Source: a virus. Taken from it: 36,637 nt of DNA. The stretch covers positions 1 through 36,637 of the IMG/VR virus record IMGVR_UViG_3300037485_000923; one strand, written 5' to 3'. The number at the start of each line of letters is the position of its first letter. Position 1 is the first letter of the stretch. A program made the translations under genes and the position numbers. This document shows, piece after piece, positions 19,116 to 34,258 of this stretch. The notes beneath the pieces are model-generated. The model made no database searches, was not told where the DNA came from, and saw only the letters and a program-made list of their open reading frames with translations.

Positions 19116-19367
19116 TTACGATTGGGCGAAAAGCAGGTCGATCCAGTTGTCTGGAGCGTCAGTGTCGGATGATGAGCCAATTACAACAGGCGGGCGCGCT
19201 TTGATTGCGGCGATGGTCGCAGATGCCTCGGCGCTCGATTTTGAGATGAATCCGAATCCGTTGCAGCGGAAGCACACTCCGTTTGCGCGACGGTATCCGA
19301 GGTTTCCAGTGCCGTTGCATTTTGGGCAGGAGTTGGAAGTGGAAACCATTGTGATCGTGTTGGACAT
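19116..19367 (-). CDS. Small DnaJ-type zinc-motif protein
   Basis: This is an 83-residue protein starting MSN at 19367, 20 nt after the end of a GTTGC array, the same distance as in two of the plus-strand copies. Residues about 14-42 hold CPKCNGTGNLG and CFRCNGFGF, two CxxCxGxG knuckles that probably bind one zinc, as in DnaJ. The Ala-rich helix 'AEASATIAAIKARPP' follows. It is a distant parallel of the 535-759 gene. Its role is unknown; DNA or nucleoprotein binding is a possibility. A start at 19406 would place the repeat array inside the coding region. Confidence 0.6.
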   Translation of the reverse strand: MSNTITMVSTSNSCPKCNGTGNLGYRRANGVCFRCNGFGFISKSSAEASATIAAIKARPPVVIGSSSDTDAPDNWIDLLFAQS

Positions 19368-19387
19368 GTGCAAACAATGCGTCCTAA

Positions 19388-19415
19388 GTTGCGTTCCTGC
19401 AACCAAAAACGCAAC
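19388..19415 (-). promoter_or_regulatory. GTTGC triple half-site array, minus-strand copy
   Basis: Read on the minus strand, it is GTTGC, 7 nt, GTTGC, 6 nt, GCAAC, with outer arms GTTGCGTT and AACGCAAC. It begins 2 nt after the stop of the upstream minus-strand gene and ends 20 nt before the ATGTCCAAC start of the zinc-motif gene. Three other copies are at 23265, 30928 and 32239. It is probably an operator or structured leader. Confidence 0.6.
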
Positions 19416-19417
19416 AA

Positions 19418-23264: not shown

Positions 23265-23293
23265 ACGCAACTTTTGAGTTGCACAAACGCAAC
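23265..23293 (+). promoter_or_regulatory. GTTGC array, copy with inverted first half-site
   Basis: GCAAC, 6 nt, GTTGC, 6 nt, GCAAC, inside ACGCAACTTTTGAGTTGC and ACAAACGCAAC. It starts 6 nt after the resolvase stop and lies 20 nt before the next ATG. The first half-site is GCAAC here but GTTGC in the other copies, so the pairing partner switches; the centre and right half-sites are conserved. The flank GAAAAA is shared with the other plus-strand copies. Confidence 0.65.
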
Positions 23294-23313
23294 ACGCAAG
23301 CCAAGGTCTGCAC

Positions 23314-23619
23314 ATGTCCAACACCGCTACCGACAATTCCATTATTATCGCGCAATCAAAAGACTGCCCATCTTCCACAATCTTTGAGATCGTGAAAGAG
23401 ACTGAAAAGGCGATTCAAATCAAGAATTGCGATATTGAACCCAAGCACGCTTTTCCAGTGTGGATTCCAAGATCACAAATTGGAACTGATACAATTAGCG
23501 TTCCGAAATGCGGCGACATGCCAGCCGTTACCGTTAAACGGATGTATTTCAAGCCATCTGTTTTTCGGATGATGGATAAGCCTTGGAAGCGCGTCGCCGT
23601 TGGATTTTCCTGCTACTAA
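23314..23619 (+). CDS. Unrecognised cargo gene of repeat cassette 1
   Basis: This is a 101-residue protein beginning MSN, 20 nt after the GTTGC array. It has 'EIVKETEKAIQIKNCDIEPKHAFPVWIPRSQI', then 'ISVPKCGDMPAVTVKRMYFKPSVFRMMDKPWKRVAVGF', a mixed alpha/beta protein with several Cys and a basic C-terminal half. No known domain. It is followed by a T-loop hairpin before the next gene. The start region ATGTCCAACACC is nearly the same as that of the 19367 gene, although the proteins are unrelated. Confidence 0.65.
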   Translation: MSNTATDNSIIIAQSKDCPSSTIFEIVKETEKAIQIKNCDIEPKHAFPVWIPRSQIGTDTISVPKCGDMPAVTVKRMYFKPSVFRMMDKPWKRVAVGFSCY

Positions 23620-23627
23620 CCACTCAC

Positions 23628-23646
23628 CGGAGGTTCGATCCCTCCG
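23628..23646 (+). other. tRNA T-loop-like hairpin 1
   Basis: CGGAGG and CCTCCG form a 6-bp stem closing the loop TTCGATC. With G53-C61 closing, U54, U55, C56 and A58 present, this is the exact layout of a tRNA T-arm, but no acceptor, D or anticodon arm is present around it. It lies 13 nt before the ATG at 23660. Two related hairpins are at 31174 and 32459. Confidence 0.65.
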
Positions 23647-23659
23647 CAATAAAAACAAC

Positions 23660-23926
23660 ATGACCAAAAAACAAAGAATACTCCGCGACATTGCGGATAT
23701 CGAACGATCATTTGACCGTCTAGGCGAGGCCGCAGAACTCGTCCACAAAGCCAGCATCATGGACTTCGACGGCGAGTTTATGGACTCCAACAAATGCTTG
23801 ATTTGGGATCTGGTGAACGTAATCGACCCAAGCGAATGCCTTGCTGACTACCTCAGATACCGCAAGGTATCGCCTGACCAGGTGGCAGATGCAATCCTTG
23901 CATGGAGGACTGAAAATGACCGCTGA
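23660..23926 (+). CDS. Unrecognised small acidic protein
   Basis: This is an 88-residue protein starting after T-loop hairpin 1. 'TKKQRILRDIADIERSFDRLGEAAELVHKASIMDFDGEFMDSNKCLIWDLVNVIDPSECLADYLRYRKVSPDQVADAILAWRTEN' is helical and acidic; no family is recognised. Its end overlaps the next small gene by 11 nt. Its position between repeat cassette 1 and the helicase-methyltransferase suggests an accessory role. Confidence 0.6.
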   Translation: MTKKQRILRDIADIERSFDRLGEAAELVHKASIMDFDGEFMDSNKCLIWDLVNVIDPSECLADYLRYRKVSPDQVADAILAWRTENDR

Positions 23927-24029
23927 ACAACTAACCGCCGACCTCGCCGCATCACGCGCCATGGTAATCGCGCTCCAAATCAAACTAACTATCGCGCTCG
24001 AAAAGATCGCTGAATTATCGAAAAGATGA
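23916..24029 (+). CDS. Very small hydrophobic helical protein
   Basis: This 37-residue ORF starts inside the end of the previous gene. 'TAEQLTADLAASRAMVIALQIKLTIALEKIAELSKR' is one amphipathic helix. Its stop overlaps the ATG of the helicase-methyltransferase gene, so it may serve chiefly as a translational coupler. Real expression is uncertain. Confidence 0.45.
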   Translation: MTAEQLTADLAASRAMVIALQIKLTIALEKIAELSKR

Positions 24030-26224
24030 ACTACGACGAATTTATTGAACAGAAAAGCCGAAAGGCTATGGCATACGGATTCGAGCCGTATGAAATCACC
24101 GCGCCATTATTCGACTGGCAAAAACATGTTGCGTCATGGGCGGTGCGTAAAGGCCGTGCAGCATTGTTCGAGGAGTGCGGACTAGGTAAAACTCTGCAAC
24201 AACTCGAGTGGGCATCACAGATCACAAGGTATACTGGGAAACCAGTCATTGTTCTGACTCCACTTTCGGTGGCAAATCAAACCCAACGCGAGGCCGTTAA
24301 ATTTGGATACACAGCAAAAGTTGTCGCTGAGGAATCAGAAATTGACGGGCCTGGAATCTATATCACCAACTACGACAAGCTCGATCATTTCGAGAATGTT
24401 GATTTTGGAGGCGTGGTTTTAGACGAGTCGTCAATCCTCAAAAACTTCAAAGGATCGACAAGAATCGCGCTCACTAAACGATTTGAGGCAACGCAATTTC
24501 GCCTTTGCTGCACTGCTACTCCATCTCCGAATGACTATACCGAGTTTGGGCAGCATGCCGATTTCCTTGGGATTTGCTCGCCCAGTCAAATGCTGGCGAC
24601 GTATTTCATCAACGACACATTCACCACTGGCGATTGGAGGCTTAAAAAACATGCCGAAAATGTATTCTGGGAATGGGTCAGTTCATGGGCTGCATGTATC
24701 TCAAAGCCGTCTGACATTGGATTTGATGACGAGGGATACAATCTGCCTGCGTTAAATCTGAACACTATCATCGTCGATGTGGACGAAGTGAGCGGAAGAA
24801 AAGAGGGCGAGCTTATCCGGTTTGCCGATCTATCTGCAACGACTATGCACCAGGAGCTACGCATGACGGCGCAAGACCGGGTAAACGCAGTGGCAGACCT
24901 AGCCAACAACTCTGACGAGTCATGGCTGGTATGGTGTAACACGAATACCGAAAGCGAAATGCTCACAAAAGCAATTCCTGATGCTGTGGAAGTGCGCGGA
25001 AGCCACACGCCTAAATACAAGGAAAAGGCTATCAGCGATTTCCTCGATGGCACAAAGAGAGTTATTATTTCCAAGGCTGGCATGATGGGCTACGGGCTGA
25101 ATTTTCAGCATTGCCGCAACGTGGCATTTGTTGGGTTATCATACTCGTTTGAGGATTTCTACCAAGCTCTCCGCAGATCATACAGATTTGGACAGAAACG
25201 CGAGGTGAATGCATTTGTGATCCACGCCACTACCGAGGGACCGATCATGAAAACGATCAAAAGAAAAATGAAACAGCATGAGGAAATGCAGCAACAAATG
25301 AAGATTGCCGCCGAGTGCTTTAAGGATTCCGAAACAAAAAGAATGACCATGAAAACAGAAATTGACAAAAAACAAAACGACAATTGGACACTATACCACG
25401 GCGATTGCGTTCGCGTTGCTAGGGAAATTGAAGATCACTCAATCGACTTCTCAGTATTTTCGCCACCATTCGCTGACCTGTTCACATACAGTAATGATTT
25501 GCAGGACATGGGCAATTGCGAGGGGTTGGACGACTTCACGAAACATTTCGAGATACTCATCGCGGAGATGAAACGGATCATGGTTCCTGGCCGCGAGGTG
25601 GCTGTGCATTGCGTCGATTTGCTATCTACGAAATGGAAAACCGGAGCAATCCAGTTCCAAGATTTCAGCGGTGAGATCATCCGCGCATTTTGGCGTCATG
25701 GATTTCTTTTCCACTCGCGCATTTGCATTTGGAAAAACCCAGTCACCGAGATGCAGCGGACGAAAGCACACGGATTGCTCCACGCCACGCTTAAAAAAGA
25801 CAGCTCAGATTCACGAGTTGGGTGTGCTGACTATTTGCTCGTTTTTAAAGCACCGGGCAAAAATCCAAAACCCATCACGAAGGACGCTACGCAGTTTCCG
25901 GTGTCATGGTGGCAAGAGGTGGCTAGTCCAGTCTGGATGACAATTGACCAAGGCAACGTCCTTAATAAATCCGGCGCGAGAGATCACCAAGACGAGAAAC
26001 ACATATGCCCATTGCAACTCGATGTCATTGAGCGAGCAATCACGCTATGGAGCAATCCCGGCGATTTGGTCTACTCGCCATTCACCGGCATCGGCAGCGA
26101 GGGAGTTGGAGCATTGCGACTTGGCCGTCAGTTTGTCGGGAGTGAACTCAAAGAGTCGTATTTCCAACAAGCCTGCGGAAATCTGAATAACGCGACCGCG
26201 CAGCAGGAAATGAGATTGTTTTAA
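24026..26224 (+). CDS. SF2/SNF2-type helicase fused to a DNA methyltransferase
   Basis: This is a 732-residue protein. The N-terminal half is an SF2 ATPase: Walker A 'EECGLGKTLQQL' (about 50-60), DESS Walker B (133-136), 'CTATPSPND' motif III (162-170), and an SNF2-like motif VI 'SYRFGQKREV' near 386. After a Lys/Met-rich linker comes a methyltransferase with SPPF at 479-482 (motif IV, N4-cytosine or N6-adenine type) and 'YSPFTGIGSEGVGALRLGRQFVGSEL' at 683 (AdoMet-binding). The order IV then I is the beta class. Such fusions occur in phages and probably protect or remodel the phage genome. Confidence 0.85.
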   Translation: MNYDEFIEQKSRKAMAYGFEPYEITAPLFDWQKHVASWAVRKGRAALFEECGLGKTLQQLEWASQITRYTGKPVIVLTPLSVANQTQREAVKFGYTAKVVAEESEIDGPGIYITNYDKLDHFENVDFGGVVLDESSILKNFKGSTRIALTKRFEATQFRLCCTATPSPNDYTEFGQHADFLGICSPSQMLATYFINDTFTTGDWRLKKHAENVFWEWVSSWAACISKPSDIGFDDEGYNLPALNLNTIIVDVDEVSGRKEGELIRFADLSATTMHQELRMTAQDRVNAVADLANNSDESWLVWCNTNTESEMLTKAIPDAVEVRGSHTPKYKEKAISDFLDGTKRVIISKAGMMGYGLNFQHCRNVAFVGLSYSFEDFYQALRRSYRFGQKREVNAFVIHATTEGPIMKTIKRKMKQHEEMQQQMKIAAECFKDSETKRMTMKTEIDKKQNDNWTLYHGDCVRVAREIEDHSIDFSVFSPPFADLFTYSNDLQDMGNCEGLDDFTKHFEILIAEMKRIMVPGREVAVHCVDLLSTKWKTGAIQFQDFSGEIIRAFWRHGFLFHSRICIWKNPVTEMQRTKAHGLLHATLKKDSSDSRVGCADYLLVFKAPGKNPKPITKDATQFPVSWWQEVASPVWMTIDQGNVLNKSGARDHQDEKHICPLQLDVIERAITLWSNPGDLVYSPFTGIGSEGVGALRLGRQFVGSELKESYFQQACGNLNNATAQQEMRLF

Positions 26225-26227
26225 TCC

Positions 26228-26467
26228 ATGAAAACCATCTGCCAGCACAACCGACCCAGCGACATCTGCGGAGTCTGCAATCCGATCCCGAGTAAACCGC
26301 TCTCAACCGGCATGCGCGAATGCTACGCCGCATTTATGACGCTTTACCCGTGGCGAAAAACCGAGCTGCCGACCTACGAGTCTTGGATTCTCTCCGACGA
26401 TGATGACGCGAGGAAATTCCGGCAGGGATGGGCCGCGAGGGCGAGCGGGCCTTGGGGAGATCGTTGA
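26228..26467 (+). CDS. Small Cys-motif protein
   Basis: This is a 79-residue protein. The N-terminus 'KTICQHNRPSDICGVCNP' holds a short Cys/His cluster (C-x-H ... C-x-x-C) that could bind zinc; the rest, 'MRECYAAFMTLYPWRKTELPTYESWILSDDDDARKFRQGWAARA', is a generic small phage domain with an acidic run. Its start follows the helicase stop after 3 nt. No family named with confidence. It is followed by a 174-bp stretch that contains a strong terminator. Confidence 0.6.
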   Translation: MKTICQHNRPSDICGVCNPIPSKPLSTGMRECYAAFMTLYPWRKTELPTYESWILSDDDDARKFRQGWAARASGPWGDR

Positions 26468-26567
26468 AATGATTGTTTGCATGATCCAAGAATTGAGATA
26501 ACCTGACGCCGCCTGAGCACGGAGTGAGACCCGCAGGCAACCATAGCAATGAAGTTTAACCAAACAT

Positions 26568-26641
26568 CCTCAAACTCTCCTCATCCGCCCGTCATTGCCG
26601 GGGTCTCAACGGGTGGCGAGAGTTTGGGGATTTTTGTTTTT
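26568..26641 (+). terminator. Long-stem intrinsic terminator with U-tract running to an ATG
   Basis: CCTCAAACTCTC (26568-26579) pairs with GAGAGTTTGGGG (26618-26629), 12 bp with one G-U. Inside, CCGCCCGT (26585-26592) pairs with ACGGGTGG (26609-26616), 8 bp. It is followed by ATTTTTGTTTTT. The last T is directly before the ATG of the HNH gene at 26642, so termination and translation start overlap. Confidence 0.8.
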
Positions 26642-27181
26642 ATGGAACGTAAACCAATTGGAAAAAGACTAAGATTTGAAATCTTTGCAAGAGACGGATT
26701 TACCTGCCGCTATTGTGGCCGGCAATCAGACACAGTGATTTTGCATATCGACCACATCCATCCTGTTTGCCAGGGCGGAACAAATGATCCAAGCAATCTC
26801 ATCACCTCGTGCGTTGATTGTAACCTTGGGAAAGCTGGCAAGAAAATAGACCAGCATGCCCCATCTGAATCATCGCGCTTGAGTATGGCTCAGGATTTAA
26901 GGGAGCAGGCACAGCTTGCGTCTTTAGCTGTTGATGCGGCGAAAGCCACAACACAAAAAAGAGCGATGATGATCGCCTTTTGGAATGAGCAAACCGGGCG
27001 CGAACTTTACGATAAAACTACAATTCAAACGATTTTCTCATACGTCCAAGAATACGGAGAATCTGTTGTTTACGGATGGATTGAAAAGGCGGCGTTTAAT
27101 TGCCCGACCGATACGCGGATGGGGAAATACATCAGCGGAATCCGTAGATCCACTAAAGCAGAAACCCAAGACGACGCATGA
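26642..27181 (+). CDS. HNH nuclease-domain protein
   Basis: This is a 179-residue protein. 'FARDGFTCRYCGRQSD' (15-30), 'LHIDHIHPVCQGGTNDPSNLITSCVDCNLGKAGK' (34-67) give an HNH domain: Cys22/25 and Cys57/60 for zinc, His38, Asn52 and 'CNLGKAG' closing it. The C-terminal 100 residues are helical, unlike a plain homing endonuclease. It may be a nicking nuclease or a replication factor; the replication genes follow. I start at 26642 rather than 26549, because the latter would place the terminator hairpin in the coding region. Confidence 0.7.
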   Translation: MERKPIGKRLRFEIFARDGFTCRYCGRQSDTVILHIDHIHPVCQGGTNDPSNLITSCVDCNLGKAGKKIDQHAPSESSRLSMAQDLREQAQLASLAVDAAKATTQKRAMMIAFWNEQTGRELYDKTTIQTIFSYVQEYGESVVYGWIEKAAFNCPTDTRMGKYISGIRRSTKAETQDDA

Positions 27182-28095
27182 AACGGCCATCATTTCAGTT
27201 TTACCCATCCGACTGGCTGCGTGATACAGGGTTGAGAACATGCTCTGTTGGCGCAAGAGGATTGTGGATGGACATGATTTGCTTTATGCACGAGGGAACG
27301 CCTTACGGAGTCTTAAAGGTTGGAAGCAAGGTTATCCTTCCATCCAACCTTGCATCAATGGTGGGAGCAACCTTGCAAGATGTTGAAGGATGGCTTGAGG
27401 AGCTTGAATCCGTGCATGTCTTTGATCGTGACGAAAACGGCGCAATTATGAGCAGAAGAATGATTCGTGATGAAAACACCCGTGAATTAAGGGCTGCAGG
27501 CGGAAAGCTAGGGGGAAATCCAGTCTTAAAACAAGGCAAGGTTAACCTTCAGTCCAACCTTAAGGATAACCTAAAAAGCGAAACCAAGGTTAAGCAAAAT
27601 CCAACCCCTTCATCTTCATCTGCATCTTCGTTTTCATCTTCATCTACATCTACTATTTCATCTACCCAAGAAAAGAACTCATCCGCTGACGCAGACGAGA
27701 TCGATTTTTTCTCTAAGCCTCAAATCACTTCGAAGAAAGAAACCGTATCCCCAGAGGGAACAACATTCGCCCATTGGTTCCGTGACACATTGCCCGAGAA
27801 AACCAACATGCCAGACAGGTGGGAAAAATCATTTGCCCAAACCTACGATGACCTCGTGCGCTTAGACGGACGAGATGGCGCCGAGATCCGCCGAGTCTGC
27901 CAATGGGCGCGGAACGACAGTTTCTGGTCCAGCAATTTCCAATCGCCTGCCAAGCTGAGAAAGCGGAACAAAGACGGAATTCAGTATTACGACGTATTTT
28001 TGGAAAAAGCCCACCAGGTGAAACGAGCCGTGCAAAAAGGCACGATTGAAAACATCCAGCTTAAAATCCTAAACGGACCGGATAAAAACGTTTGA
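27178..28095 (+). CDS. Replication initiation-like protein (DUF1376-type N-terminus)
   Basis: This is a 305-residue protein. 'FQFYPSDWLRDTGLRTCSVGARGLWMDMICFMHEGTPYGVL' is the N-terminal pattern of phage replisome organisers (YPxDW, G-x-x-G-L-W), with a winged-helix-like section to about residue 105. Residues 145-180 are a Ser-rich linker (SSSSASSFSSSSTSTISS), followed by a C-terminal domain with 'FAHWFRDTLPE' and 'AQTYDDLVRLDGRDGAEIRRVCQWARND' as in helicase-loading/primosome proteins. It works with the DnaC-like and DnaB-like genes that follow. Confidence 0.75.
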   Translation: MKRPSFQFYPSDWLRDTGLRTCSVGARGLWMDMICFMHEGTPYGVLKVGSKVILPSNLASMVGATLQDVEGWLEELESVHVFDRDENGAIMSRRMIRDENTRELRAAGGKLGGNPVLKQGKVNLQSNLKDNLKSETKVKQNPTPSSSSASSFSSSSTSTISSTQEKNSSADADEIDFFSKPQITSKKETVSPEGTTFAHWFRDTLPEKTNMPDRWEKSFAQTYDDLVRLDGRDGAEIRRVCQWARNDSFWSSNFQSPAKLRKRNKDGIQYYDVFLEKAHQVKRAVQKGTIENIQLKILNGPDKNV

Positions 28096-28112
28096 AATAA
28101 ACCAACGAAATT

Positions 28113-28304
28113 ATGAAAAACGAAATGAACGAAATACCAACGCCGGAAACGAATGAATTACGCGACCTATACGAAAACCACGAACACCGCGCCAATGTTG
28201 GCGACATTTGGGATTTGTGCGAGTGTTTGGAAAATCGCCTTGCCGCGGCTAGAGTCGCGCTGGACAAATTGGCGAGGCTAGAACTAACCGCGCCAAAACC
28301 ATGA
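28113..28304 (+). CDS. Small protein with TPETNELRDL...CLENRLAAAR motif
   Basis: This is a 63-residue acidic helical protein. 'EIPTPETNELRDLYENHEHRANVGDIWDLCECLENRLAAARVALDKLARL' belongs to the same broad small phage family as the minus-strand gene at 18783-19073 (a TPxTD start and a C-L-E-N-R/E-R-E helix). Function is unknown. It sits between replication genes with ATGA overlap downstream, so it is co-expressed with the loader. Confidence 0.6.
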   Translation: MKNEMNEIPTPETNELRDLYENHEHRANVGDIWDLCECLENRLAAARVALDKLARLELTAPKP

Positions 28305-28843
28305 GCGAAACCACATCAGACGGATGGGGCGCGAGATACATCGTCCCAATCCAAAACACGAGCCAGCGATGGGCGCAGGCGTATAACCAGGCATCCAGCA
28401 TCGTCGCTAAAAACGGCGTTGTCATCATCGTGGGCGACCGAGGCCGTGGCAAAACGCGCATTGCCGCAGAGATTTCCCGCGATGGCAATTTTCCAAACGA
28501 TCTAGCGAGCCGCGAAAAAACATCGTGCTATCGCCGCGCAACCGAGATCATTTGCGAGCTACGAACCGCGATGATTTCCCGAGTTGGCGAAACCGCGACG
28601 ATCCGGCGTCTATCCGCCGTTGGTTTGCTCGTGATAGACGAGTTCCAGGATCGGAGCGAAACCGAGTGGGAAAACCGCATGATTTCCACGATCCTTGACC
28701 GCCGCTATGCCGATAACCTGCCGACCATCCTGATTGCTAACCTCAAAATAAACGACCTCCCCAACAAAATTTCAGATTCCGTAATCTCCCGAGCCAACGA
28801 ATGCGGTGGGGTTGTGGTGTGTGATTGTGAATATTTCCGATAA
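28301..28843 (+). CDS. DnaC-like ATPase, helicase loader
   Basis: This is a 180-residue protein with Walker A 'VIIVGDRGRGKTRIAAEI' (about residues 44-56) and a Walker B/sensor 'RRLSAVGLLVIDEFQDRSETEWENRMISTILDRRY' (about 106-140), then a sensor II-like 'LPTILIANLKINDLPNKISDSVISRANECGG'. This is the compact AAA+ layout of DnaC/IstB-type loaders. A short N-terminal segment before the Walker box is probably the partner-contact part. It is between the initiator-like and DnaB-like genes. The stop lies 5 nt before the methyltransferase ATG. Confidence 0.8.
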   Translation: MSETTSDGWGARYIVPIQNTSQRWAQAYNQASSIVAKNGVVIIVGDRGRGKTRIAAEISRDGNFPNDLASREKTSCYRRATEIICELRTAMISRVGETATIRRLSAVGLLVIDEFQDRSETEWENRMISTILDRRYADNLPTILIANLKINDLPNKISDSVISRANECGGVVVCDCEYFR

Positions 28844-28848
28844 CAAAA

Positions 28849-29568
28849 ATGAAACAACAAAAACTAAATGAGCTACATCTTTTTGCAGGAGCTGGGGGAG
28901 GAATCCTCGGCGGAATCCTTTGCGGACATACCTGCGTCTGTGCTGTCGAGATTGAACCTTACCCACGAAAGGTATTGCTGCAACGGCAACGCGACGGAAT
29001 CCTGCCGAGATTCCCAATCTGGGACGACGTGCAAACATTTGACGGCAGACCATGGAGAGGCAAGGTTGACATCGTTTGCGGTGGATTCCCCTGCCAGGAC
29101 ATCAGCGCAGCCGGTAAAGGAGCGGGACTCAGCGGGGAGCGGTCTGGATTGTGGACCGAGATGGCCAGGATCGTTTGCGAGATTAGACCCCAATACGTCA
29201 TCGTGGAAAACTCACCAATTCTCACTTCTAGGGGGCTTGGAGTCGTTCTCGGAGACTTGGCCGAGATGGGGTATGATGCGCGATGGGGAGTGCTGGGATC
29301 TGATATCGTTGGAGCCGATCATCACCGCGCCAGAATCTGGATGGTTGCCGACTCCAACATGCGCGGACTCGAAAAATGCAGGGGGGAGGCAAAACCAATA
29401 CGACCTCAGCAAACACGCGAGGGTAATTACCGGCAAGCGTCTGAGCGTCCACTACTCGGAATGGACGATGGATTGGCCTCATGGGTGGACAGACATCACG
29501 CCATTGGGAACGGACAAGTTCCAAGCGTGGCTAGACTCGCATGGGAAACTTTAACACAACAAAAATGA
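28849..29568 (+). CDS. C5 cytosine DNA methyltransferase
   Basis: This 239-residue enzyme methylates cytosine C5, probably shielding phage DNA. Motif I is FAGAGGG (12-18), motif IV GGFPCQ with catalytic Cys82, motif VI 'VIVENS' (117-122), motif VIII 'HHRARIWMVA' (158-167), and motif X 'AIGNGQVP' (218-225). The target-recognition section between VIII and X is short (about 50 residues), so the enzyme is small for the family. Most of the gene is also open in the +1 frame (28868-29554). The end overlaps the DnaB ATG (ATGA). Confidence 0.85.
   Translation: MKQQKLNELHLFAGAGGGILGGILCGHTCVCAVEIEPYPRKVLLQRQRDGILPRFPIWDDVQTFDGRPWRGKVDIVCGGFPCQDISAAGKGAGLSGERSGLWTEMARIVCEIRPQYVIVENSPILTSRGLGVVLGDLAEMGYDARWGVLGSDIVGADHHRARIWMVADSNMRGLEKCRGEAKPIRPQQTREGNYRQASERPLLGMDDGLASWVDRHHAIGNGQVPSVARLAWETLTQQK
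28868..29554 (+). CDS. Overprinted second frame inside the C5 methyltransferase gene
   Basis: This is a 228-codon open frame, +1 relative to the methyltransferase, covering nearly all of it. The product contains 'SFAVDSPARTS', 'SFSETWPRWGMMRDGECW', 'SGWLPTPTCADSKN', and 'SVHYSEWTMDWPHGWTDITPLGTDKFQAWLDSHGK'. The order of a WPRxGMMRxGE box, an LPTPTxxD box and an EWxMxxPxGWTDxxPL box is known to me from phage proteins encoded next to such methyltransferases. That supports true dual coding. An alternative is that the motifs are side effects of the methyltransferase frame. Translation is unproven. Confidence 0.45.
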   Translation: MSYIFLQELGEESSAESFADIPASVLSRLNLTHERYCCNGNATESCRDSQSGTTCKHLTADHGEARLTSFAVDSPARTSAQPVKERDSAGSGLDCGPRWPGSFARLDPNTSSWKTHQFSLLGGLESFSETWPRWGMMRDGECWDLISLEPIITAPESGWLPTPTCADSKNAGGRQNQYDLSKHARVITGKRLSVHYSEWTMDWPHGWTDITPLGTDKFQAWLDSHGKL

Positions 29569-30923
29569 ACGATCCAACCAGACCATTTCCCCACGCGCTA
29601 GGGGCTGAAAAATCCGTTTTATCATCCATGCTGCAAGATCCGGCGCAGTTCGTGCCGCTGGCATCTGAGTATGGCCTAACCGAGGCGCATTTCTATCTCC
29701 AATCTCATCAGATCATTTTCCGGCAGGCTAGCGACTCATTTGAGGCGGGCGAGGCCATCGACCTTGTGACGCTCGTGCAAAAATTTCTAGACATCGGGCT
29801 ACTGGACCGAGTGGGAGGCGCTGCCGCCGTTTACGACATCTACGGATACGCGCTCATGTCCGACGCATTCGAGCATCACGCCGGAATCATCCGCGATAAA
29901 TTTATCATGCGCTCGATGCTCAACCTATGCGCGGAAACCACGCAGCAGGTCTATGACGCGCCAGACGAGGCCGCTGACACGCTGCAAACCCTAGAGAGAG
30001 GCATCACCTCCATTGCCGCAGTTGCGAGCGGTGCAGCGCCGCTCCTCACGCTAAAAACGATCATACTCGAATCCGTGGATCAGTTCGAGCGCCGCGCCAA
30101 GGGATCACAAGATACTATCGGGATTCCTACCCTCGGCCCGCTCGACATGTATCTAAAAGGCATCCATCCCGGCCGCGTTTGGATCATTGGAGCTTATCCC
30201 GGCGGAGGCAAATCCGTGATGGCGTCCCAGATTATCGTCGATGCTGTCATGTCCGATCATCCGTGCCTATTTCTCTCGCTGGAAATGTCCGAGCGCGACC
30301 TAATGGATAGAATGATTATTCAGGCATCACGGGTGGATGCGCGAGCGTTTACAGAGCCTCGGGAATATGCGCGGGAAAATGGGACCGAGGAAATCTCAAC
30401 CGGGCTTGTGAGGGCTATCAAAGGCGTGGTTCCGCGCCTCGTCGCATCGCCGCTGAGGTTACAGCGTCCAGCTAACCGCAACATCTCCACGATCATTTCA
30501 TGCATCAGACGCGCCCACCGCGAAATGGGAATCAAAATTGCCGCCGTGGACTATTTGCAACTGATCCGCGCCAAATCCGACAACAAAGAGGCCGAGGTTT
30601 CGGAGATCTCACACGCTTTACAGGAGGTGGCGCAGGATTTGCAGATCACCGTGCTGGCGCTCTCACAACTCAACGCCGACGGCGACACGAAACACGGGCG
30701 CGTAATCGAGGAGGATGCCGATGCTGTCATTTCGATCATCCAGGACCGAGATAAGACGAGCAAGACCTACAAGCAGCACCGGCATGTTGTCATTGCAAAA
30801 GATCGGCATTATGGATCGGAGGGAACTAGAGTCCCGCTGATTTTAAACCGGGAAACCATCCGATTCGTGCAGGGCGAGGACTCTACAAAGGCGGAGGGGG
30901 AAACGTTTCCGAAAAATAAATGA
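29565..30923 (+). CDS. DnaB-like replicative helicase
   Basis: This is a 452-residue protein starting at the ATG overlapping the methyltransferase stop. 'FPHALGAEKSVLSSMLQDP' is the DnaB N-terminal opening. The RecA-like core has Walker A 'AYPGGGKSVMAS' near residues 210-221, 'PCLFLSLEMSERDLMDRMIIQ', Walker B 'IAAVDYLQLI', and 'VLALSQLN' motif. It unwinds the phage replication fork and is loaded by the DnaC-like gene upstream. It ends 4 nt before a GTTGC array. The length is close to bacterial DnaB (about 470). Confidence 0.9.
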   Translation: MNDPTRPFPHALGAEKSVLSSMLQDPAQFVPLASEYGLTEAHFYLQSHQIIFRQASDSFEAGEAIDLVTLVQKFLDIGLLDRVGGAAAVYDIYGYALMSDAFEHHAGIIRDKFIMRSMLNLCAETTQQVYDAPDEAADTLQTLERGITSIAAVASGAAPLLTLKTIILESVDQFERRAKGSQDTIGIPTLGPLDMYLKGIHPGRVWIIGAYPGGGKSVMASQIIVDAVMSDHPCLFLSLEMSERDLMDRMIIQASRVDARAFTEPREYARENGTEEISTGLVRAIKGVVPRLVASPLRLQRPANRNISTIISCIRRAHREMGIKIAAVDYLQLIRAKSDNKEAEVSEISHALQEVAQDLQITVLALSQLNADGDTKHGRVIEEDADAVISIIQDRDKTSKTYKQHRHVVIAKDRHYGSEGTRVPLILNRETIRFVQGEDSTKAEGETFPKNK

Positions 30924-30927
30924 GAAA

Positions 30928-30955
30928 GTTGCGTTTTGTGTTGCACAAACGCAAC
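30928..30955 (+). promoter_or_regulatory. GTTGC triple half-site array, best-conserved copy
   Basis: Half-sites GTTGC, GTTGC and GCAAC are spaced 7 and 6 nt apart; the outer arms GTTGCGTTT and AAACGCAAC are a 9-bp inverted repeat. It begins 4 nt after the DnaB stop. The preceding bases GAAAAATAAATGAGAAA resemble those before the 32239 copy. A further GTTGC/GCAAC pair (30977-30991) lies downstream before the ATG. Confidence 0.7.
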
Positions 30956-31007
30956 CAGTGAGTCAGAGTCTTCTCAGTTGCAGCAAGCAACGCTACTCCA
31001 CAAAAAA

Positions 31008-31163
31008 ATGACAACGCACACCAACGCAGCAGGAACCGATTATTTTTCCACCAATGACGAAAACGGCCAAACGGTTTATTCGTTCTCCACAGATTTTAAC
31101 GACGTTTGGACGCAGGATGACGAGGACGCAATCAACGCAGACTCCACTCCATCCAAACTCTGA
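31008..31163 (+). CDS. Unrecognised cargo gene of repeat cassette 2
   Basis: This is a 51-residue acidic protein: 'TTHTNAAGTDYFSTNDENGQTVYSFSTDFNDVWTQDDEDAINADST'. Rich in Asp/Asn/Thr, probably small and partly disordered; it resembles no family known to me. It lies 52 nt after the GTTGC array (longer than in the other cassettes) and 10 nt before T-loop hairpin 2. The 'caaaaaaatg' leader has no Shine-Dalgarno. Confidence 0.55.
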   Translation: MTTHTNAAGTDYFSTNDENGQTVYSFSTDFNDVWTQDDEDAINADSTPSKL

Positions 31164-31173
31164 TTTCCACCAA

Positions 31174-31192
31174 GCCGGGTTCCATCCCCGGC
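31174..31192 (+). other. tRNA T-loop-like hairpin 2
   Basis: GCCGGG and CCCGGC enclose the loop TTCCATC (U54, U55, C56, A58 present; position 57 is C instead of purine). The stem sequence differs from hairpins 1 and 3 by compensatory changes that keep it paired. It is 15 nt before the ATG at 31208. Confidence 0.6.
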
Positions 31193-31207
31193 GCATCCCC
31201 AAAAACA

Positions 31208-31519
31208 ATGAACGAACTCACAAAACTAATCGCGGAATTTCACGCGACACTGGCAAAATTCGAGGCAATCGCAAAACGCATGGAGGAGCGGGAATCAGGC
31301 ATCGACCCCACCATGCGGGATTTGCCGTTTCCAGATGGAGTTATCCCGCCGCCGCTACCCGAGGGCAAAACCCGGTGGATTTACCGCGGGACGTTTATGG
31401 CGGACGATGCGTTTTACGTCGATCCACCAAGGCATATCGAGTATTTCAGTCGTCACGAAAAACGCTGGTGCATCACCTGCCATTTTTCCACAGACCTCCA
31501 TCACATCGAGGCCGTATGA
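31208..31519 (+). CDS. Unrecognised small protein
   Basis: This is a 103-residue protein. 'LTKLIAEFHATLAKFEAIAKRMEERESGIDPTMRDLPFPDGVIPPPLPEGKTRWIYRGTFMADDAFYVDPPRHIEYFSRHEKRWCITCHF': N-terminal coiled helix, then a Pro-rich linker and a compact C-terminal part with CxxCHF and several aromatic residues. No family is recognised. The ATG follows T-loop hairpin 2, and the stop overlaps the next ATG. Confidence 0.6.
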   Translation: MNELTKLIAEFHATLAKFEAIAKRMEERESGIDPTMRDLPFPDGVIPPPLPEGKTRWIYRGTFMADDAFYVDPPRHIEYFSRHEKRWCITCHFSTDLHHIEAV

Positions 31520-31770
31520 AAACCGATTTATTCACCATGACAACCGACCAATACTACCACCTGGAGTTCAGACGTGCCTCACGAGCCGCGCTCTCGTGTC
31601 TCACCGCGAGCAACATTTGCACGATTGCCGGGATTGCAATGGGCTTCTATAGCCACGTTTTTCCGGCAGTTATCGCCGCTCTCTTCGCATGTCTATTCGC
31701 GCTATTCACCGCGCAAAACTACACCCAATCCAGCCGCTTATTTAAGATGGCACAGAAAAGAATCAGATGA
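31516..31770 (+). CDS. Small membrane protein
   Basis: This is an 84-residue protein with a hydrophobic hairpin: 'ALSCLTASNICTIAGIAMGFYSHVFPAVIAALFACLFALFTAQNY', two membrane segments of about 18-20 residues separated by 'GFYSHV'. The N-terminus is soluble ('MKTDLFTMTTDQYYHLEFRRASRA') and the C-terminus basic (RLFKMAQKRIR). It could be a superinfection-exclusion or accessory membrane factor; its distance from the lysis genes argues against a holin. I start at the ATG overlapping the previous stop. Confidence 0.6.
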   Translation: MKTDLFTMTTDQYYHLEFRRASRAALSCLTASNICTIAGIAMGFYSHVFPAVIAALFACLFALFTAQNYTQSSRLFKMAQKRIR

Positions 31771-31925
31771 ACCTAGGAACAATTAAACGCGATTCGATCA
31801 TTGGCCGTGATCCGATTTTAACCTACGCCATCTCATCTCGTATAGTTCGCCGCGAAATTAAACGCCGCAAACGTGAGGCGAAATGGATACAAATCATCTC
31901 AAACCTCAAATTCTGGAACAAATGA
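31767..31925 (+). CDS. Small basic protein
   Basis: This is a 52-residue protein coded between ATGA overlaps with both neighbours. It reads 'NLGTIKRDSIIGRDPILTYAISSRIVRREIKRRKREAKWIQIISNLKFWNK', strongly basic and helical, with a KRRKRE cluster. It could bind nucleic acid or a membrane surface. No homologue is recognised. Confidence 0.5.
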   Translation: MNLGTIKRDSIIGRDPILTYAISSRIVRREIKRRKREAKWIQIISNLKFWNK

Positions 31926-32236
31926 CACACACACCAGGACCGTGGAACGCTGAAGGCTACCATGTAAAGCAAAGCGGGCAATGCGGAACCAGAATGATCG
32001 CGGATGTTTGTTACACGGGGCCGCATCACACGCCGCCCGACGAATATCCAAAAAGCTGCCGTTTTGCGGACGAGGCGAATGCTAGGCTAATAGCAGCAGC
32101 ACCGGAATTGCTGGAGGCGCTGGAAATGCTGATTAACCTCGAGCCAAACTGTTTCTCATCTGATGCCTACGAGCGCAGCTTGTGGCAAAACGCCCGCGAA
32201 ACCATCGCAAAAGCCACCGGGAAAAATAATTCGTGA
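31922..32236 (+). CDS. Conserved small phage protein (THTPGPW ... AAPELLEAL family)
   Basis: This is a 104-residue protein. The THTPGPW opening followed by 'ADEANARLIAAAPELLEALEMLINLEPN' and a C-terminal 'NARETIAKATG' is a very common small protein family of phages and prophages with no known function. I start at the ATG overlapping the previous stop; an earlier in-frame ATG at 31883 lies inside the upstream gene. It ends 2 nt before the third GTTGC array. Confidence 0.8.
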   Translation: MTHTPGPWNAEGYHVKQSGQCGTRMIADVCYTGPHHTPPDEYPKSCRFADEANARLIAAAPELLEALEMLINLEPNCFSSDAYERSLWQNARETIAKATGKNNS

Positions 32237-32238
32237 AA

Positions 32239-32266
32239 GTTGCGTTTTGTGTTGCGTAAGCGCAAT
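32239..32266 (+). promoter_or_regulatory. GTTGC triple half-site array, divergent copy
   Basis: GTTGC, 7 nt, GTTGC, 6 nt, GCAAT; the outer arms are TTGCG and CGCAA. It begins 2 nt after the upstream stop and ends 20 nt before the MSN start at 32287, the same spacing as at 19388 and 23265. Confidence 0.6.
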
Positions 32267-32286
32267 CCGTCCGCTATTCCTTTTGC

Positions 32287-32448
32287 ATGTCCAACAACAA
32301 CACCGAAGCCAAAGCCCAAATCAAAGCAATCCTCCAATCCAAGTTTCTAAAGCTGGTTAGCGAAGGAATGAATCCAGAAACTGCATTTGCAGATGTCATG
32401 GGAGCTTTTGAAGATCAATTTCCGGGCTTGATCGAAAAACTCGGATAA
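32287..32448 (+). CDS. Unrecognised cargo gene of repeat cassette 3
   Basis: This is a 53-residue protein. It reads 'NNNTEAKAQIKAILQSKFLKLVSEGMNPETAFADVMGAFEDQFPGLIEKLG', two helices with an acidic C-terminal half. No family is recognised. Located between the third GTTGC array and T-loop hairpin 3, it begins MSN with the ATGTCCAAC start shared by the 19367 and 23314 genes. Confidence 0.6.
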   Translation: MSNNNTEAKAQIKAILQSKFLKLVSEGMNPETAFADVMGAFEDQFPGLIEKLG

Positions 32449-32458
32449 TACCAAACCC

Positions 32459-32481
32459 AGCCGAGGTTCAATCCCTCGGCT
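32459..32481 (+). other. tRNA T-loop-like hairpin 3
   Basis: AGCCGAGG and CCTCGGCT form an 8-bp stem closing the loop TTCAATC (U54, U55, C56, A57, A58, U59, C60), an exact T-arm layout with a longer stem than the other two. It is 7 nt before the ATG at 32489. No upstream sequence complements the region as a tRNA acceptor stem. Confidence 0.65.
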
Positions 32482-32804: not shown

Positions 32805-33308
32805 ATGGCCAAGCCTGCAAAATGGGACAGCATGACGCCAAGCGAGCAGGAGGCTTGGCGTGAAAGGAGGCAAGAATACGCTCGCAAACGCTACGAAGCG
32901 AATCGCGAAAAATTACGGGAAAAAAATCGCGAACGGCGCGAGGCAAATCCCGAGAAAGCTCGGGAAGCGCATTGCAAATACCGCGAAGCAAATCGTGATA
33001 AATGTCAAGAACGCGTTCGCAAATGGCGCGAGGCAAATCCTGAGAAAGCGCGTCAAGTATATCGCAAATATCGCGAGGCAAATCCTGAGAAAGCGCGTCA
33101 AGTATATCGCAAATATCGCGAGGCGAATATTGAAAAGCGCCGGAAATACGCTCGCAAATGGCGCGAGGCAAATCGTGAAAAAGAACAGGAATCAGCTCGC
33201 AAACGCCACCATAAAGCTCTTCAACAAGCTGCCGCAGACCAATTTTTCATCCTAGCAGGCGCTGCCGAATCAATCTCCAAACTAAAACTGAAATCAAAAT
33301 CAAAATGA
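32805..33308 (+). CDS. Lys/Arg-rich REAN-repeat protein, paralog 1
   Basis: This is a 167-residue protein. The N-terminus 'KPAKWDSMTPSEQEAWRERR' is followed by about seven 15-residue units with the core KYREANxEKxRE, mainly charged and helical, and a C-terminal 'ADQFFILAGAAESISKL'. Two units are a perfect 45-bp tandem duplication (33031-33120). The paralogs at 33887 and 34599 share the N-terminal box. The repeats suggest a long basic helix that may bind nucleic acid; similar proteins are widespread in phages but their job is unknown. Confidence 0.7.
   Translation: MAKPAKWDSMTPSEQEAWRERRQEYARKRYEANREKLREKNRERREANPEKAREAHCKYREANRDKCQERVRKWREANPEKARQVYRKYREANPEKARQVYRKYREANIEKRRKYARKWREANREKEQESARKRHHKALQQAAADQFFILAGAAESISKLKLKSKSK
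33031..33120 (+). repeat. Two perfect tandem 45-bp units
   Basis: The 45 bases at 33031-33075 are repeated exactly at 33076-33120, encoding the 15-residue unit REANPEKARQVYRKY twice. The exactness shows a recent duplication within the otherwise divergent repeat array. Confidence 0.85.
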
Positions 33309-33886: not shown

Positions 33887-34258
33887 ATGGCCAAGCCTGC
33901 AAAATGGGACAGCATGACGCCAAGCGAGCAAGATGATTGGCGTGAAAGGAGGCGGGAATTAGATCGCAAATACCGCGCGGAAAATCCTGAAAAGGCTCGG
34001 GAAAAAGATTGTAAACGCGGTCGCAAATACCGTGAAGCCAATCGTGAAAAAGTGAGGGAATCAAAACGCAAATGGTTCGAAACGAATTCTGAAAAACAGC
34101 GGGAAGCAGTTCGTAAATGGAATGAAGCGAATCCTGAAAAAAAGCGGGAATCGAGACGCAAAACAAAGCAAAAAGCCAAACAGCAAACCGCCGCCGATCA
34201 ATTCTTTATCCTAGCCGGAGCCGCAGAACAACTAACCAAACTGAAACTGAAAAAATGA
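33887..34258 (+). CDS. Lys/Arg-rich REAN-repeat protein, paralog 2
   Basis: This is a 123-residue protein. Its first 44 bases are identical to those of paralog 1, then 'DDWRERRRELDRKYRAENPEKARE' follows with fewer repeat units (about four), and the C-terminus 'AADQFFILAGAAEQLTKLKLKK' matches paralog 1 in protein but differs at many third positions. This asymmetry suggests recent gene conversion at the 5' end. Same possible nucleic-acid-binding role. Stop overlaps the MazG-like ATG. Confidence 0.7.
   Translation: MAKPAKWDSMTPSEQDDWRERRRELDRKYRAENPEKAREKDCKRGRKYREANREKVRESKRKWFETNSEKQREAVRKWNEANPEKKRESRRKTKQKAKQQTAADQFFILAGAAEQLTKLKLKK

Follow-up and report, generated by a model that had tools for sequence, protein, structure and literature searches.

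Candidate promoter-proximal cargo slots in an uncultured tailed phage: small genes with a common predicted leaderless start and, in most slots, a 3' hairpin

The systems closest to the locus analysed here are integron cassettes, the first gene of lambdoid early operons, phage morons, leaderless phage genes and mosaicism produced by relaxed recombination. An integron cassette is a promoterless open reading frame (ORF) with an attC site, placed behind the resident promoter Pc. In lambdoid phages, nutR after cro in lambda and put in HK022 are antitermination or regulatory RNA elements, and some integrases cross over in tRNA genes.

The phage slot described below resembles each of these systems in part. 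As with integron cassettes, the exchanged items are promoterless small ORFs with a 3' hairpin, at times more than one in tandem, and the promoter in front of them is resident, but the phage hairpin is T-arm-like or absent, the unit begins at the start codon and there is usually one unit per slot. The lambdoid PR-cro-nutR region likewise combines an operator/promoter, a short first gene and an RNA hairpin before the second gene, and an HTH-like gene upstream is found in one slot lineage; the first gene of the slot, however, is hypervariable, no boxA-like sequence was seen by eye and the T-loop-like hairpin travels with the gene. Leaderless phage genes such as lambda cI share a predicted transcript start at the AUG, whereas the predicted leaderless start of the slot is a common module before many unrelated genes. 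Short pieces recently exchanged between partly similar flanks are also typical of mosaicism by relaxed recombination (PMC3945230), from which the slot differs in that its junctions recur at the start module and the hairpin end. Phage mosaicism is known; the new element is that exchange recurs at two fixed functional points, in combination with a shared predicted leaderless start and a T-arm-like 3' hairpin, and the arrangement was not found described in the open-access literature.

The window, i.e., the whole stretch of 36,637 nucleotides that was analysed, is an uncultured tailed-phage contig from IMG/VR. It encodes a GpA-type terminase, a lambda-type portal, a RuvC-like resolvase, a DnaC-like loader, DnaB and a YqaJ nuclease, as well as a RecT-like protein whose match is slightly below the Pfam cut-off. 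Relatives were retrieved best with a single 732-aa gene at 24026-26224 in which an SNF2-type helicase is fused to an N6/N4 DNA methyltransferase (56 loci at 34-99% identity); with DnaB as bait no close relatives were found.

A sequence-only reading of this DNA had described GTTGC arrays, small ORFs and T-loop hairpins as cassettes with common ends that swap cargo. The elements are at the places indicated and are not expected by chance: the pattern GTTGC..GTTGC..GCAA has three matches in the window against 0.06 expected, and GGTTCNATYCC also three against 0.15 expected, all on the plus strand and within the reported hairpins. The rearranged array copy 1 is listed with the remaining features:

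19116-19367, minus strand: cargo ORF 4, 83 aa, MSNTITMV.., with CxxC pairs and no hairpin behind it
19374-19416, minus strand: array 4 (pattern match at 19389-19415) and promoter 4, -35 TTGCAG (19397-19402), 17 bp, -10 CATTGT (19374-19379)
23266-23293, plus strand: array 1, GCAAC-GTTGC-GCAAC palindromes, proposed from the sequence as an operator overlapping the promoter
23279-23307, plus strand: promoter 1, -35 TTGCAC (23279-23284), 17 bp, -10 CAAGGT (23302-23307); predicted transcript start at the A of ATG 23314
23314-23619, plus strand: cargo ORF 1, 101 aa, MSNTATDN.., swapped for a 66-aa ORF in L151/L053
23628-23646, plus strand: T-arm-like hairpin 1, CGGAGG TTCGATC CCTCCG
30928-30955, plus strand: array 2 (pattern match at 30928-30954), proposed operator
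30941-30969, plus strand: promoter 2, -35 TTGCAC (30941-30946), 17 bp, -10 CAGAGT (30964-30969), from sequence and analogy with the other copies
31008-31163, plus strand: cargo ORF 2, 51 aa, MTTHTNAAG.., with a CA-rich start but no MSNT
31174-31192, plus strand: T-arm-like hairpin 2, GCCGGG TTCCATC CCCGGC
32239-32266, plus strand: array 3 (pattern match at 32239-32265), proposed operator
32252-32280, plus strand: promoter 3, -35 TTGCGT (32252-32257), 17 bp, -10 TATTCC (32275-32280); predicted start at ATG 32287
32287-32448, plus strand: cargo ORF 3, 53 aa, MSNNNTEAKAQ..
32459-32481, plus strand: T-arm-like hairpin 3, AGCCGAGG TTCAATC CCTCGGCT

The minus-strand copy, earlier described as preceding a small zinc-motif gene and lacking the hairpin, indeed has none, and the right frame gives an ATG at 19367, an MSNT start and the 83-aa CxxC protein.

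The GTTGC array is a palindrome that overlaps the -35 box and the spacer of a predicted sigma70-like promoter and is a putative operator; its sequence depends on the lineage (GTTGC, GCAATGC or none obvious). Copies 1, 3 and 4 have the same geometry, in which the -35 box, 17 bp, the -10 box and 6 nt are followed by ATGTCCAACA, while the start predicted for promoter 2 (30976) leaves a 32-nt leader unlike in the other copies. Across 19 slots carrying differing upstream sequences, the best fit to the -35/-10 consensus was obtained with a spacer of 17 and 6 nt before the ATG (131 of 228 matches, the maximum among 1000 shuffled sets being 94), and T-12, A-11 and T-7 of the -10 box were the most conserved letters. 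Because the promoter boxes stand at a fixed distance from the ATG, transcripts are predicted to start at its A, as leaderless mRNAs. A scan of IMG/VR for the array pattern gave chance matches only, so the GTTGC array is regarded as lineage-specific, and when the promoter alone was scanned for, with no start motif, 14 contigs matched: three already known ones with an MSNT start and others that looked unrelated.

The predicted leaderless mRNAs begin with ATGTCCAACA, encoding MSNT or MSNN. ORFs that are otherwise unrelated have 18-31 nt in common at this start module, a conservation which is partly by construction since relatives were retrieved via the start motif. In the codons behind the ATG the content of A+C at nt 13-30 is 0.77 compared with 0.59 in the remainder and is higher in 20 of 21 ORFs; none of 20,000 random window sets reached the observed value. 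CA repeats behind the AUG boost leaderless translation (PMC9031893), and the CA-rich start module would be expected to favour it here. The small genes had been taken as unrelated to each other, which does not hold at the 5' end, where cassettes 1 and 3 have ATGTCCAACA in common. A likeness noticed by eye between the start module and the T-loop core (GTCCAACACC and GTTCAATCCC, 7/10) was discarded as weak for strings so short.

The boundaries of the exchanged unit were delimited by comparing matching slots of related phages. At cassette 1 the window and L297 carry the 101-aa ORF, while L151, a close relative, and L053 have a 66-aa ORF unrelated to it; identity is 88-93% over the 200 nt upstream and 77-85% over the downstream stretch, the two kinds of ORF having only ATGTCCAACACCGC in common. 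The ORFs of L170 and L202 are 98.7% identical and the match ends 27 nt past the stop, which is the hairpin end, and then falls to background, with an upstream identity of 73%. In L164 and L184, whose ORFs are 99% identical, the match extends through a non-T-loop hairpin up to its final base and then falls to background, with 84% identity upstream (75% in the last 60 nt). Conversely, L143, L170, L224 and L254 have a common upstream control region and differing ORFs. From these four comparisons the exchanged unit is promoterless and extends from the ATG to the hairpin end, the promoter/operator staying with the phage; whole-unit replacement by unrelated small genes was seen in three phage pairs. 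The swapping of cargo between common ends thus stands: L151 has a different ORF between matching flanks, and L170/L202 and L164/L184 have ORF plus hairpin in common at about 99% identity in otherwise diverged surroundings. The exchange is replacement and not presence/absence. That the array is one of the ends is not supported: it belongs to the resident promoter/operator, varies with the lineage and did not travel with the ORF in the examined pairs. What moves is bounded by the MSNT/MSNN start and the 3' hairpin.

Hairpins 1, 2 and 3 fold as predicted (z -3.3, -2.1 and -4.2) and have the fold of a tRNA T-loop, namely a 7-nt loop UUCNANY closed by G-C on a paired stem. Among 20 cargo families chosen by their start alone, a T-arm-like hairpin stands 6-11 nt past the stop in 12; one further family has a degenerate form of it, two have a stable hairpin of another kind and five lack any hairpin, so the T-loop hairpin is not required. 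In 15 distinct T-type hairpins the first five pairs are always formed while G-C, C-G, A-T and G-T interchange, and 87 of 90 cells of the six stem pairs are paired compared with a shuffled mean of 62. The loop letters were partly a search criterion and the pair exchange was not, which makes the constancy of the loop the weaker evidence; the pair exchange in the stems suggests that the hairpin acts as an RNA structure. In 18 whole records GGTTCNATYCC has 14 matches (one in the control), 11 of which follow an MSNT gene on its own strand at a distance of up to about 800 bases; of the remaining three, one is a tRNA-Arg gene. A complete tRNA or tmRNA gene at the hairpins was considered and rejected, as ARAGORN made no call and Rfam gave no credible match. 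No T-run follows the hairpins in the slots examined, so they are not ordinary intrinsic terminators. The candidate roles are 3' protection, pausing or processing, antitermination and modification by TruB; a GU-pseudoU-CG context for TruB is reported from bacterial mRNA (PMC13236023).

The same slot design, with other promoter/operator sequences and differing ORFs, occurs in about 25 metagenomic, mostly incomplete phage contigs, which form a loose group. A scan of GTDB genomes for the start motif gave 35 matches, none with a slot; most of them fall at the C-terminal end of a single conserved bacterial protein (MSNTEP..) and the others are isolated. In 388 genomes from the phylum of an Akkermansiaceae bin the motif matched once, and this match lies in the bin itself. 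A search for the terminase that covered this phylum alone gave distant relatives (25-36% identity) in 17 of the 388 genomes, which is only a hint.

The locus is probably a set of promoter-proximal cargo slots with a leaderless start, in which the ATG-to-hairpin unit is replaced by relaxed phage recombination. A resident early promoter, overlapped in many lineages by a lineage-specific palindromic operator, would start transcription at the A of the ATG; the first gene opens with the CA-rich module and usually ends in the T-arm-like hairpin, and this promoterless stretch is replaced whole by unrelated small genes. Replacement would most likely proceed by relaxed homologous recombination involving phage RecT/YqaJ-type proteins, with crossover between the short conserved ends plus neighbouring homology. 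The hairpin may mark the 3' end of the first cistron, where it would protect, pause or process the RNA, and selection would keep the functional ends that are used in exchange. Phage recombination is favoured because no integron motif, reverse transcriptase or consistent integrase was detected, whereas YqaJ is encoded in 12 of 19 records (it was not found in seven, some of them fragments), a RecT-like protein in the window, and relaxed recombination by such phage systems, with Rad52-like recombinases, is documented (PMC3945230). The shared end of L164 and L184, a non-T-loop hairpin, weakens the case for a common T-loop as the crossover homology.

Other explanations were weighed against the same observations. 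The hairpin may be an antitermination or regulatory RNA after the first gene, with ordinary mosaicism around it, and its position behind the first short gene of an early operon, its paired stems and near-constant loop would agree with this, as would the operator-like palindromes and the small divergent gene upstream of the slot in the L143/L170/L224 lineage; the gene of L143 matches HTH weakly and under the curated cut-off. Yet the hairpin is missing in five of 20 slots and travels with the cargo gene, one L049 hairpin precedes a convergent gene and no boxA-like sequence was seen by eye, which makes this reading unlikely. It is slightly less likely still that a dedicated mechanism exchanges exact mRNA-length units between resident promoters and recognises the hairpin at the RNA or single-strand level, integron-like without an integron. 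A site-specific origin, with a tyrosine recombinase crossing over in the 7-bp T-loop between inverted arms and inserting or removing ORF+hairpin units as in integrons, appears improbable. The hairpin geometry (arms of 5-8 bp and a 7-bp loop), the several tandem ORF+hairpin units of L049 and L184, the integrase genes near the slot in the phage of L143 and an integrase seen by eye beside the last L049 hairpin speak in its favour. Against this, PF00589 was detected in 2 of 19 partial records and not in the window (a scan that missed the L049 gene), no integrase was assigned to IntI, and no slot had both attC core motifs (GTTRRRY / RYYYAAC) around the hairpin, most having neither, so the slot is not classed as an integron. 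Moreover, the arm sequences vary freely with pairing kept, unlike a sequence-specific double-stranded site, the L164/L184 unit moved with a non-T-loop hairpin, and no hairpin counterpart was found at the 5' end.

Two further possibilities are much more remote. In RNA-templated movement the unit would be the predicted mRNA, copied by a reverse transcriptase with the T-arm-like end as a tag, and in two pairs the unit does run from the predicted transcript start to the end of the hairpin; but no reverse transcriptase was found (PF00078 in 0 of 19 records) and recombination in conserved functional ends would give the same boundaries, leaving this very improbable. Equally far-fetched is a moron, an autonomous transcription unit that sits among phage genes and brings along its own promoter and terminator. 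Small cargo genes whose function is unknown, located between conserved phage genes with a promoter before and a hairpin behind, are moron-like, as had been proposed from the sequence; however, the promoter is resident and follows the phage lineage (L170/L202 and L164/L184 contradict a travelling one), no T-run lies behind the hairpin, co-oriented genes follow closely downstream and the exchange is replacement at one site. With a promoter that stays behind and no terminator, the slot is not a moron.

With the promoter-proximal slot as the preferred reading, this would be the position where the uncultured phage group exchanges small genes directly at an early promoter, and it points to a leaderless start common to many unrelated phage genes and to free-standing tRNA T-arm mimics in mRNA behind stop codons. 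Across relatives the cargo comprises 20 mostly unrelated small ORFs of 37-133 aa, for which domain and family searches gave no confident assignment, and would amount to a natural collection of candidate proteins for host takeover or counter-defence.

Several minor observations were made. In L224 and L259 a short UUCG hairpin replaces the T-loop hairpin behind the stop codon of the cassette, a hint that this position may accept any stable hairpin. On the strand opposite the L049 cassettes (1-1550), a gene resembling a tyrosine recombinase by eye is convergent with the last T-loop hairpin, and an attachment site of the recombinase might be close to this hairpin. Less than 300 bp upstream of the L261 cassette ATG, on the minus strand, a T-arm stretch resembles a degenerate tRNA, with no ARAGORN call. 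The difference between L153 and L207, examined as a further swap, consists of two genes inserted behind the hairpin and not of an ORF+hairpin unit. In the window, 45-bp tandem repeats lie within two coding regions (32894-33203 and 34040-34162), whose repetitive, charged proteins resemble paralogues, and the DnaJ central zinc domain and Anti-TRAP match the 83-aa CxxC protein below threshold.
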